Shown here one piece after another: positions 39,469-41,963 of a stretch of 64,000 nucleotides of DNA (positions are counted from its first letter, which is position 1; every line of letters starts with the position of its first letter). Source of the DNA: Candidatus Uhrbacteria bacterium (GTDB lineage Bacteria; Patescibacteriota; Patescibacteriia; 2-12-FULL-60-25); the NCBI GenBank assembly GCA_008363075.1, contig RHKK01000002.1, positions 1 to 64,000 of the forward strand, read 5' to 3'. The notes under the pieces were generated by a model, which was not told where the DNA came from, made no database searches, and saw only the letters and a program-made list of their open reading frames with translations. Position numbers and translations under genes: made by a program.

Positions 39469-40227
39469 GCGCGTCCGTACGGATGCGGCCCACAGCTTCA
39501 CGGGCCGCGCGAGCGTTTCAAGAATCGGCGCATCGGAGGCAAGCTCCTGCGTGCCGGTCGGCGGAAATTCGCTATTCGCAGGTCGATAATATGTTCCGAA
39601 GATGATGTCCAAAACCGGAAAAAACTGCGCGAAGTTTTTGTGTTGATGATGCGGCAGGATCGAATGGTGGACGCGATGGAGTTGCGGCCCGACGATGACC
39701 GGCGTGAACCGCCCGAGCTCCAGCCGCCAGTTCGCATGCGAAAAGAACAGCCAGCCGAGAGCGGCGAACGGGACGATCGCGGCCGCCGTCGCGTCCAAAC
39801 CGAGGAAATATTCCACGGGTGTGACGATGAGTGCGGTTTGGATCGGACGTTCGAGCCAATATGTGCGCATACTCGTCGTCGCGTTCAGTTCGCGGTCGGC
39901 GTGATGGAGCTCGTGGATCGGCCAAAGCCATCGCCAAGCGTGTTGCGCGCGGTGGTACCAGTAGAAGATCAGGTCGCCGAGGAAGAGGTAAAAAAGTACG
40001 ATGAGGATCGAAAACGTGAGGCTATACTTCGGCACAAGGCGGGTTGGGATCGGGACAACGGAAAACAGCCATCCGACCACGATCCCGCCCATAAGCAGGA
40101 ACATGCCCGTGAATATGAGATTCCGGAGCCGTCCTCTCGCCGTTTGTCCGCGTTCGGCGGGAAAGAAATATTCGAATACGCCGAGGATCGCGTAGAGACC
40201 GAGGATGATCAGGATCGTCCGTGTCAT
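39454..40227 (-). CDS. fatty acid hydroxylase / sterol desaturase family membrane protein
   Basis: 257 residues with several membrane helices. Di-iron histidine boxes of the superfamily are visible: HRAQH (H92, H96), HELHH (H105, H108, H109), and in the C-terminal half HRVHH with PHHQHKNF. Such enzymes hydroxylate or desaturate lipids using oxygen and an electron donor. The substrate is unknown. It overlaps the upstream gene on the same strand by four bases (ATGA), so the two are coupled. The presence of an O2-using enzyme is notable for a reduced genome. Confidence 0.85.
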   Translation of the reverse strand: MTRTILIILGLYAILGVFEYFFPAERGQTARGRLRNLIFTGMFLLMGGIVVGWLFSVVPIPTRLVPKYSLTFSILIVLFYLFLGDLIFYWYHRAQHAWRWLWPIHELHHADRELNATTSMRTYWLERPIQTALIVTPVEYFLGLDATAAAIVPFAALGWLFFSHANWRLELGRFTPVIVGPQLHRVHHSILPHHQHKNFAQFFPVLDIIFGTYYRPANSEFPPTGTQELASDAPILETLARPVKLWAASVRTRSRRS

Positions 40228-41324
40228 AACCCCATCTCTTCATCTCGTTCCTGCTTCTTGAGTTGGAAATATTCCTCTTTTTGGGTTCGCGCGAGCGGTC
40301 CCCATGACTTTGAGATGCGCGTATCTCCTATTGGATACACAAAAGGATAGTGTTCCTCCTCGAATTTTACATATTGCTTCGCCGTCCAATCGACGATCAG
40401 TATTTTATCCAAAATGTTGACCTGATGGTAGAACTGGGAATGTCCGAAGTACTCTTTATGATACTCGTCCGTTTCGACATCCAGGCCGTGCATGATACGG
40501 GCATAGTTGCGAAACATCCAAGGTACCGTAAAGCAGCTTCCAACCTCGCAAAAGCGCTCGTGCGGCGTCTTTGGTTCAGGCTTCACATACGCGGCGAAAC
40601 CTTGAATGGCTTCCTTGAGTTTACGGACATGTTCCGGATCGAGGGCGAGCGCGGCACCGAATCGTTCAACGTCTTCGAGAGCGGAGCGGCAATCCGTTCT
40701 GTCTTTCACGTTGATCTGACGAAGGGCCTCCTCTACGACCGCGGGATCGATTTCAAGCGAGAGATCGGGCGCGTGTTCGGCCTCGGCAAGAGGGAGGAAT
40801 ATTGGATTTTTTATGGAGGCAGCAGCAAGATACATTCCGTGAAAACGGACATCCTCCGGACGGATCCATTCGTTTCCCGTGCGGGCGATATCCCGGTCCG
40901 TTGAATAGGCGAACGCAACGTACCTGTTCGGATATTCTTTAAATGGCGCTATGTTTGCGATAGCGAACCGACGGTCCGTCAGCGGCTCATGCGCCCCGGC
41001 CAGTCTCATCCGGACACCGGGGTCTCGGCTGAATCTTCGTAAGCTCATGATCCGCCACGGACCCTGTTGGGCCGGCATGACGCGGTCGGTTCCGCCCACC
41101 GCGTCATGCCCAAAGGCCTCCTTCAGAGTCATGGAGAAGACCTTTTTCGTTTCTTCAATACGCTCGGGGTGCCACTCAAAGATTTCTCTCAAATCGGCAA
41201 GCGATATGCGATCAGGATGCTTGATGCCGTAGTCGTTCCAATCAAAAATCCTTTTCTCCTTGGGCGGTTCCGTTGGAGGTTTTTCCGTCGCCGAAGACGG
41301 GCGTTCCATGGACATGGTAACCAT
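40224..41324 (-). CDS. unknown protein with possible transglutaminase/papain-like C-terminal half
   Basis: 366 residues, soluble, no signal peptide. I recognise no named family. The C-terminal half has EVGSCFTVPWMFRNYARIMH, then GHSQFYHQVNILDKI and LIVDWTAKQYVKFEE. Cys, then His after about 50 residues, then Asp about 14 residues later followed by W-T-A-K-Q is the order of a transglutaminase-like triad, which is an inference. The middle part contains YVAFAYSTDRDIARTGNEWI. DNA is less GC-rich than its neighbours. It is coupled to the fatty-acid hydroxylase gene. Start ATG 41324; a second Met five residues in is possible. Confidence 0.55.
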   Translation of the reverse strand: MVTMSMERPSSATEKPPTEPPKEKRIFDWNDYGIKHPDRISLADLREIFEWHPERIEETKKVFSMTLKEAFGHDAVGGTDRVMPAQQGPWRIMSLRRFSRDPGVRMRLAGAHEPLTDRRFAIANIAPFKEYPNRYVAFAYSTDRDIARTGNEWIRPEDVRFHGMYLAAASIKNPIFLPLAEAEHAPDLSLEIDPAVVEEALRQINVKDRTDCRSALEDVERFGAALALDPEHVRKLKEAIQGFAAYVKPEPKTPHERFCEVGSCFTVPWMFRNYARIMHGLDVETDEYHKEYFGHSQFYHQVNILDKILIVDWTAKQYVKFEEEHYPFVYPIGDTRISKSWGPLARTQKEEYFQLKKQERDEEMGL

Positions 41325-41401
41325 GGTACACGCTCCGTCGTTGCGCTTCGAGTCTTGACGAAGCTCCGACTGGGCCGGTATTTGATACGGGTCCGCAACA
41401 C

Positions 41402-41425
41402 AAAACCGCCCGATCGGGCGGTTTT
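41402..41425. terminator. terminator after tRNA-Asp (works on both strands)
   Basis: Near-perfect palindrome aaaaccgcccgatcgggcgg followed by tttt, five bases beyond the CCA end of tRNA-Asp on the minus strand, with T-runs on both sides. Confidence 0.85.
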
Positions 41426-41429
41426 GTTG

Positions 41430-41507
41430 TGGCGGACGCGAAGGGATTCGAACCCTCGATCTTCTCCGTGACAGGGAGACGTGTTAACCGGGCTACACCA
41501 CGCGTCC
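41430..41507 (-). tRNA. tRNA-Asp (GUC)
   Basis: Acceptor GGACGCG pairs with CGCGTCC. D-arm GTGTAGCCCGGTTAACAC. Anticodon stem TCTCC/GGAGA encloses CTGTCAC with anticodon GTC. T-arm CGAGGGTTCGAATCCCTTCG. CCA is encoded (41430-41432). The stop codon of the GIY-YIG gene lies inside this tRNA (its TAG is in GTGTAGCCC). Confidence 0.95.
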
Positions 41508-41792
41508 GTGATTTGTGTCATTCACTTCTTCTCCAAGAAGCTCTTTCAAACTTTCATATACGCGTTTGCGTATATCTTTTTTGCCATCGCTTGATTTGAG
41601 GTACATTTCGCGCCGAACGGCTTCTGATCGGAGCCAATAACTTTCATACGCGAGGAGAATAAGAGGACGTCTATGACGGGTAGATTCTACCAAGCCCTTG
41701 GAATGCTCGTCGAAACGTCGTTTAAGCTCTTGAGTTGAGCCGACGTAGAATCGACGATCTTTCAGGCTGATAAGAATATACACGTAGTACAT
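41493..41792 (-). CDS. GIY-YIG nuclease-domain protein between two tRNA-Asp sequences
   Basis: 99 residues: a single GIY-YIG domain with YYVYILISLKDRRFYVGSTQ (GIY and YVG motifs), ELKRRFDEHSKG (catalytic Arg) and EAVRREMYLKSSDGKKDIR (Glu). Of the small UvrC-like/YhbQ type common in Patescibacteria. It lies between a 5' fragment of tRNA-Asp upstream and the intact tRNA-Asp downstream, ending 15 bases inside the latter. That layout suggests insertion into the tRNA gene with duplication of its 5' part. Only ~6 bases separate the start from the fragment. DNA is AT-richer than its surroundings. Confidence 0.85.
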   Translation of the reverse strand: MYYVYILISLKDRRFYVGSTQELKRRFDEHSKGLVESTRHRRPLILLAYESYWLRSEAVRREMYLKSSDGKKDIRKRVYESLKELLGEEVNDTNHGRVV

Positions 41793-41798
41793 AGTCGA

Positions 41799-41862
41799 GT
41801 GTTAACCGACCGGCATTCGCCGGTCGAGGGGCGAATGCCCCCTCGGGCTACACCACGCGTCC
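41799..41862 (-). pseudogene. 5' fragment of tRNA-Asp, interrupted in the D-loop
   Basis: Reading on the minus strand, 41862-41845 and 41807-41799 match the acceptor strand and D-arm of the intact tRNA-Asp base for base, together with three bases of upstream flank (30 bases in all). The anticodon and 3' half are missing. A 37-base hairpin insert splits the D-loop between GCCC and GG. It cannot make a functional tRNA. Confidence 0.85.
41808..41844. repeat. 37-base double-hairpin insert in the tRNA-Asp fragment
   Basis: Two adjacent hairpins: gaccggc-attc-gccggtc and gaggggc-gaat-gccccctc. The insert falls exactly in the D-loop. Hairpins with gaatgcc / ggcattc cores are a known style of dispersed repeat in these genomes. 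Confidence 0.8.
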
Positions 41863-41934
41863 GTGTTGATCCGTGTTGAATTGTCTTGACGGATGCTCGT
41901 CCCGGGGGGACGATGAATATGTCTGGCGGGCGAT

Positions 41935-41963
41935 ACCTTAGCAAGGTTCGCCGCCGTTGGCAA
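41935..41963 (-). promoter_or_regulatory. promoter upstream of the tRNA-Asp fragment and GIY-YIG gene
   Basis: On the minus strand, ttgcca (41958-41963), a 17-base spacer and taaggt (41935-41940). It reads into the tRNA fragment, the GIY-YIG gene and the intact tRNA-Asp, so it is probably the original tRNA-Asp promoter. Confidence 0.5.

Follow-up and report, generated by a model that had tools for sequence, protein, structure and literature searches.

Free-standing GIY-YIG nucleases beside tRNA genes have a precedent in phages. SegB of phages T4 and T6 has its cleavage site, the T-loop sequence RAWTSGAAC, inside tRNA genes (PMC13096335), and it drives inheritance of the tRNA region as well as its tandem amplification (PMC13096335; PMC2988022). 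In the rRNA genes of CPR bacteria, Patescibacteria carry GIY-YIG ORFs outside group I/II introns, mostly at the tops or bases of stem-loops (PMC11270868). That study described neither tRNA targets nor rebuilding of the target, and judged GIY-YIG genes to fall outside spread by homing. Homing endonuclease genes of fungal mitochondria, such as the Allomyces atp6 unit, duplicate the target gene. Genomic islands integrated at tRNA genes also carry part of the tRNA and keep the gene whole.

The window, the whole 64,000-nt stretch of DNA analysed here, contains a GIY-YIG gene placed between two copies of tRNA-Asp sequence. The best explanation is that a homing-type nuclease unit, free-standing in the chromosome and specific for tRNA genes, brings along a replacement for half of its target. 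We consider this reading likely (probability about 0.74), with cleavage and mobility both inferred. The name homing endonuclease unit is provisional, as site-specific cleavage and biased inheritance are likewise inferred. The parts of the locus, in minus-strand order, are as follows.

41935-41963, minus strand: TTGCCA-17-TAAGGT, a weak promoter-like match preceding the partial tRNA copy (sequence; alignment with the empty allele)
41846-41865, minus strand: partial tRNA copy, block 1, comprising the shared leader CAC (3 nt) and tRNA nt 1-17 (exact repeat; alignment with the empty allele L125)
41809-41845, minus strand: double hairpin of 37 nt interrupting the D-loop of the partial copy, with cores GGCATTCGCC and its reverse complement GGCGAATGCC (fold z = -3.2 for copy plus insert)
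41799-41808, minus strand: partial tRNA copy, block 2, tRNA nt 18-27, the 3' side of the D-arm (the copy stops where the D-arm ends)
41493-41792, minus strand: single-domain GIY-YIG nuclease gene, 99 aa (ORF; PF01541, 51.7 bits)
41430-41507, minus strand: intact tRNA-Asp(gtc) (ARAGORN; Rfam RF00005, 66.7 bits; genome-wide tRNA list; DNA search)
41400-41427, minus strand: terminator-like perfect 14-bp palindrome 3' of tRNA-Asp (perfect stem)

A preliminary description, made from sequence alone, had proposed the order promoter, 5' tRNA-Asp duplicate, GIY-YIG gene, tRNA-Asp and terminator. This order holds, with the promoter only a weak consensus match; a strict promoter scan does not list TTGCCA-17-TAAGGT at 41963-41935. 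The proposed position of the nuclease stop codon inside the intact tRNA also holds, the TAG falling at tRNA nt 13-15. A contiguous 30-nt duplicate of the acceptor and D-arm holds only in part. The partial copy spans tRNA nt 1-27 (27 nt, containing the acceptor 5' strand and the whole D-arm) and is broken after nt 17 by the 37-nt insert, which is built from two adjacent hairpins, CGAGGGGGCATTCGCCCCTCG and ACCGGCGAATGCCGGT, whose cores are mutually reverse-complementary. The exact direct repeat is 22 nt long, composed of tRNA nt 1-19 and 3 leader nt, with a start-to-start spacing of 355 bp. Its repeat score of 19 compares with a best score of 12.5 among 100 shuffles of the flank. The tRNA-Asp at 41430-41507 is the only one found in the window's genome.

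The GIY-YIG ORF stands alone between the two tRNA copies, and no integrase gene or att sites were found there. The unit therefore differs from tRNA-integrated islands in lacking an integrase, in its size of about 355 bp and in that the duplicated half can be the 5' one. The ORF lies outside any intron or intein and is part of no other gene product. No group I/II intron was found in the region, where an Rfam search gives the tRNA alone above cut-off, and a TIGR01453 match of 30 bits is under the 56-bit cut-off of that model.

The protein consists of the GIY-YIG domain only. The GIY-YIG residues Y5, G18, R26, H30, E62 and K66 are invariant across 51 homologues. Judged by these residues and the PF01541 match, the catalytic core is intact, with the activity itself inferred. 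The pN/pS of the window gene against its nearest relatives is about 0.3, and pN/pS values span 0.16-0.38, showing that the gene is under purifying selection. By sequence, the nearest solved structures are single-domain UPF0213 / YazA-YhbQ GIY-YIG proteins (PDB 1ywl, E 8e-7; 1zg2, E 2e-5), which are not known to act as tRNA-gene elements.

A related genome, G027, has the same gene order as this part of the window, with a single tRNA-Asp and neither the copy nor the nuclease gene. Its order is what we take to be pyruvate kinase, tRNA-Asp, histidine phosphatase and a CYTH/AAA-like gene, the names being read from translations. The alignment of the window with this empty allele (L125) begins at the phosphatase start, crosses the promoter-like stretch and reaches tRNA nt 1, which lands on the window's partial copy. 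The partial copy therefore marks the ancestral start of the tRNA. Compared with the empty allele, the window has the old 5' copy, now partial, still in place, and downstream of it the nuclease gene and the complete tRNA. The stretch at 41963-41935 aligns with the region preceding tRNA-Asp in G027; the preliminary description had proposed that the tRNA was left under its original promoter. Besides the window, none of the tRNA-Asp loci examined in the family has this nuclease gene within 1.5 kb; a distinct family member lies 185 nt after tRNA-Asp in G028 (L013). The orphan flanking gene at 40224-41324 was dropped as a synteny marker, having no homologue in 41 family genomes.

A second site shows the same contrast. 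The tRNA-Gln site of G026 is occupied, and seven congeners with matching flanks are empty. The same nuclease lineage is found at the same T-loop point of tRNA-Gln in G024, which belongs to another genus (L036). Occupied and empty alleles at one specific site are thus seen both at the window locus and at tRNA-Gln of G026. The tRNA-Pro (L049) and tRNA-Trp (L082) loci were considered as further syntenic empty sites and dropped as proof, because their flanks are not cleanly syntenic.

The association with tRNA genes extends to a family. A survey covered 91 homologous loci from 57 related genomes, with a tRNA within 450 nt scored as a neighbour. Such a tRNA is present at 79 of the 91 loci, against a null of 4.6% per gene, and 76 of these 79 genes share its orientation. 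The binomial P for the association is about 3e-92; relatedness is ignored, and since the loci share descent, the P values overstate independence. Rfam applied to the tRNA-less loci of this set identified a tmRNA neighbour twice and 23S rRNA once. For loci in named genomes, 53 of 80 adjoin a tRNA or tmRNA and 27 have neither within 450 nt, one of the latter lying near a group I intron. The loci without an RNA neighbour fall largely in separate clade(s) (5 label changes versus a shuffled mean of 22). GIY-YIG genes adjoin tmRNA at four loci (L061, L095, L257 and L284), and at L050 a gene of the tRNA-associated family lies inside 23S rRNA. The CPR rRNA insertions likewise have structural RNA genes as targets. 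The hosts are mostly Patescibacteria, and also include Syntrophaceae, a deltaproteobacterium and Phycisphaerales. The collection scan used a 5-member alignment, the 51-protein alignment being too diverse. A plasmid collection searched for relatives of the nuclease gave no match. A viral origin was rejected, with no confirmed relatives in viral contigs and only three weak hits in a phage collection, none named SegB.

The placement of the genes follows the protein tree. The side of the tRNA on which the gene lies changes 9 times on the tree, versus a shuffled mean of 24, and the tRNA isotype changes 35 times versus 53. Nuclease clades hold to one side of the tRNA and largely to one isotype, as in a tRNA-Trp clade of eight members from eight genomes.

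Three layouts are found in the family. In layout A, which the window shows, a 5' copy is followed by the gene and then the tRNA, and the gene reaches the start of the tRNA or runs into it. Layout B is its mirror: the tRNA is followed by the gene, located beyond the tRNA terminator, and by a 3' copy that often includes the terminator. In the third, an intact tRNA is followed after 85-250 nt by the gene, and a copy is hard to recognise or absent; often none is clear. About 46 loci, in the two mirror layouts, carry a tRNA copy, whose broken end faces the gene. Copies of the 5' type include a few nt of the leader, and those of the 3' type run on through the terminator; what was duplicated is therefore DNA, not mature tRNA. 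At L018 and L036 the insertion point is GGTTC^GA in the T-loop. Copies tend to end at an arm boundary, but this is no strict rule: only 16 of 42 do so to within 2 nt. Some copies are nearly complete (L059, L060 and L228). Copy and gene can be found apart, since there are pseudo-tRNAs that lack a nuclease gene.

A passive history is a very unlikely alternative. It assumes tandem duplication of a tRNA, decay of one copy and the capture of a small ORF between the two, with tRNA loci acting as insertion hot spots, as for integrase-borne islands. The nearly complete copies and the gene-less pseudo-tRNAs speak for it. Against it, dozens of tRNA loci have members of one and the same protein family, the copy is broken on the side towards the gene, clades hold to one side and isotype, and the unit lacks an integrase gene.

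It is also most improbable that the nuclease is a host or addiction-type factor acting on the tRNA itself, by RNA cleavage, processing or quality control, and placed by the tRNA for co-expression. The shared orientation, the overlap of stop codon and tRNA, and the purifying selection are as this alternative would have them. However, syntenic sites have empty alleles, the neighbours include many isotypes plus tmRNA and 23S, the 3' layout puts the gene past the tRNA terminator, and the partial tRNA copies are left unexplained.

The homing-type unit is best compared with SegB, by analogy the strongest precedent for cutting of tRNA genes by a GIY-YIG enzyme; no direct sequence comparison was made. 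Both are free-standing GIY-YIG nucleases beside tRNA genes, the SegB motif RAWTSGAAC matches the insertion point GGTTC^GA of L018 and L036, and the units show T-loop insertion points and one tandem unit (L092/L093). Unlike SegB, which acts on phage tRNA arrays, the units are chromosomal, encode single-domain proteins of 80-100 aa, are specialised by isotype, and each carry a partial tRNA copy that rebuilds the split tRNA. In this last respect they resemble the Allomyces atp6-type unit, in which the nuclease gene brings a replacement piece of the target and the displaced piece is left behind. That unit differs in its protein-coding target, its organelle setting and other details, and no sequence comparison was made.

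Three observations concern single loci of the family. In G007, the whole unit is tandemly repeated at tRNA-Pro with identical nuclease copies (L092/L093), resembling SegB-type amplification. At L322:1273-1353 (G026), a decayed 27-aa remnant of a GIY-YIG gene lies next to tRNA-Trp, consistent with decay after invasion. L252 and L253, from assemblies labelled Shapirobacteria and Microgenomates, encode the same GIY-YIG protein without any difference, which may reflect recent transfer, contamination or naming.

The homing-type unit would operate as follows. The element, of about 355 bp, would comprise one GIY-YIG nuclease gene and a replacement 5' part of tRNA-Asp. The nuclease is predicted to bind and cut the tRNA gene in or near one arm, and repair from the donor allele would install the gene. 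The missing tRNA half would come from the donor, leaving the host with a working tRNA, and invasion of an essential gene would for this reason be nearly harmless. For the 5' layout, a single transcript would carry the gene and the tRNA, and tRNA processing would release the gene, co-transcription being inferred. Lineages would specialise on particular tRNAs, decay and vanish, leaving pseudo-tRNA scars. In the occupied window allele, the partial copy is broken by hairpins, yet the intact tRNA sequence is rebuilt. The rebuilt tRNA retains the presumed target, which counts against this scheme, and protection from the resident nuclease is at most inferred. In addition, no cleavage, transfer event or donor-recipient pair has been observed. 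The 27 named loci without a tRNA or tmRNA neighbour, the third layout with its often unclear copy and the pseudo-tRNAs that lack the gene also weigh against the scheme.

The central claim of the preliminary description, that a mobile nuclease gene entered the tRNA gene and rebuilt its 5' end by duplication, is supported by the empty alleles and the family. So is its proposal of a small tRNA-targeting GIY-YIG mobile unit, although cutting of the D-arm of the tRNA-Asp gene is inferred. Of the checks it named, the presence of the same gene beside tRNAs in relatives is favourable (79/91 loci; 53/80 named loci when tmRNA is included), and empty single-tRNA sites were found in G027 for tRNA-Asp and in the seven G026 congeners for tRNA-Gln. 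It would have been refuted by a uniform layout without empty alleles or by GIY-YIG paralogues unlinked to tRNA repeats. Neither occurred: the layout is patchy, and the genes without an RNA neighbour belong largely to separate clades. The hairpin inserts, the mirror layout and the wider targets (tmRNA and 23S) had not been foreseen.

The hairpins are the least explained part of the units. The 46 loci that have both a copy and an insert hold 63 inserts; 59 lie in D, anticodon or T arm windows, which cover about half of the tRNA positions, and 50 contain a perfect stem of at least 6 bp. Insert lengths of 30, 36-37, 40 and 20-22 nt recur. In some loci the anticodon arm is swapped for a palindrome. 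In G031 and G057, TCCCTCCTTTCGCGAAAGGAGGGA recurs at dispersed positions as an exact repeat; where this palindrome sits in the tRNA-Trp copy, a 4-nt repeat flanks it. The hairpin core is rare in the window's genome, where one other double hairpin lies between genes. Certain palindromes are terminator sequences found throughout the genome, and another core is common to terminators of the same genomes.

These features raise a third alternative, that the palindromic double-hairpin element is the mobile agent and the GIY-YIG protein its transposition partner, as for RAYT transposases and REP. The hairpin inserts of most copies, in D, anticodon or T arms and with recurring lengths of 30, 36-37 and 40 nt, the dispersal of TCCCTCCTTTCGCGAAAGGAGGGA with its flanking repeat, and the hairpins in pseudo-tRNAs without the gene argue for it. 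The rarity of the core in the window's genome, the identity of certain palindromes with genome-wide terminators, and the tracking of tRNA genes rather than palindromes by the nuclease gene argue against it. No REP/RAYT Y1 transposase linked to the palindromes was found; the associated protein is GIY-YIG only, and the palindromes are REP-like in form only. We regard this alternative as remote.

Since hairpin-bearing pseudo-tRNAs occur without the nuclease, and palindromes are also dispersed or found in terminators, we treat the hairpins as associated with the homing-type units, their role unproven. Speculatively, they may be palindromic elements settling at hairpin tips where selection fails to remove them, or may guard the copy against recutting or recombination. 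Hairpins repress translation of homing endonucleases in T4 (PMC2988022), and by analogy such repression is a further possible role.

Pseudo-tRNAs with palindromes were also observed on their own. A pseudo-tRNA-Asp lies directly upstream of tRNA-Asp, without a nuclease gene, in G001 (L114), G012 (L112), G025 (L129) and G030 (L118). The palindrome CCCCGGTGTCCACCGGGG, or variants of it with compensating changes, replaces the anticodon arm in these pseudo-tRNAs, which may be scars or functional RNAs. At L192:745-1103 (G025), three tandem pseudo-tRNA-Ala units of about 103-110 nt lie beside an intact tRNA-Ala, each with the same palindrome replacing the anticodon arm and a terminator. At L194-L210 (G025 and G029), the palindromic core CCGRTGNNCAYCGG is common to many intrinsic terminators, recalling uptake-sequence terminators.

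A bolder reading is of a widespread class of chromosomal selfish units, under 400 bp long, in Patescibacteria and in other bacteria as well. Each would combine a tRNA half with a single-domain GIY-YIG nuclease, enter tRNA (and tmRNA/rRNA) genes at their loops and rebuild them, and the double-hairpin palindromes of the broken arm would be functional in the unit, not bystanders. The evidence falls a little short of favouring this reading, which is not excluded. No description of tRNA units of this kind was found in the open-access literature searched, which is not proof of their absence from the literature. If the homing-type explanation is true, the units would be among the smallest autonomous mobile elements known; rebuilding of the target would let them use essential, conserved RNA genes in many genomes without doing harm. 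They would also help to account for the abundance of small GIY-YIG genes in Patescibacteria, for pseudo-tRNAs found next to tRNAs and for some of the insertions in structural RNA genes of CPR bacteria, and would provide a family of compact nucleases naturally specific for single tRNA genes.

The window's genome, a 1.1-Mb assembly that is 99.9% complete, contains 42 tRNAs above cut-off and seven GIY-YIG matches. One other match, L006, is a gene at tRNA-Ser in the mirror layout. The matches without a nearby tRNA are UvrC (L007), L001 and L002 near uvrA, L003 and L004. A distinct GIY-YIG subgroup lies near uvrA and uvrC on contig C6 of this genome (L215:2010-7442), with ends of the NPEWKDLS type and repeat peptides of the ERSEGS / LSEAKDL kind.
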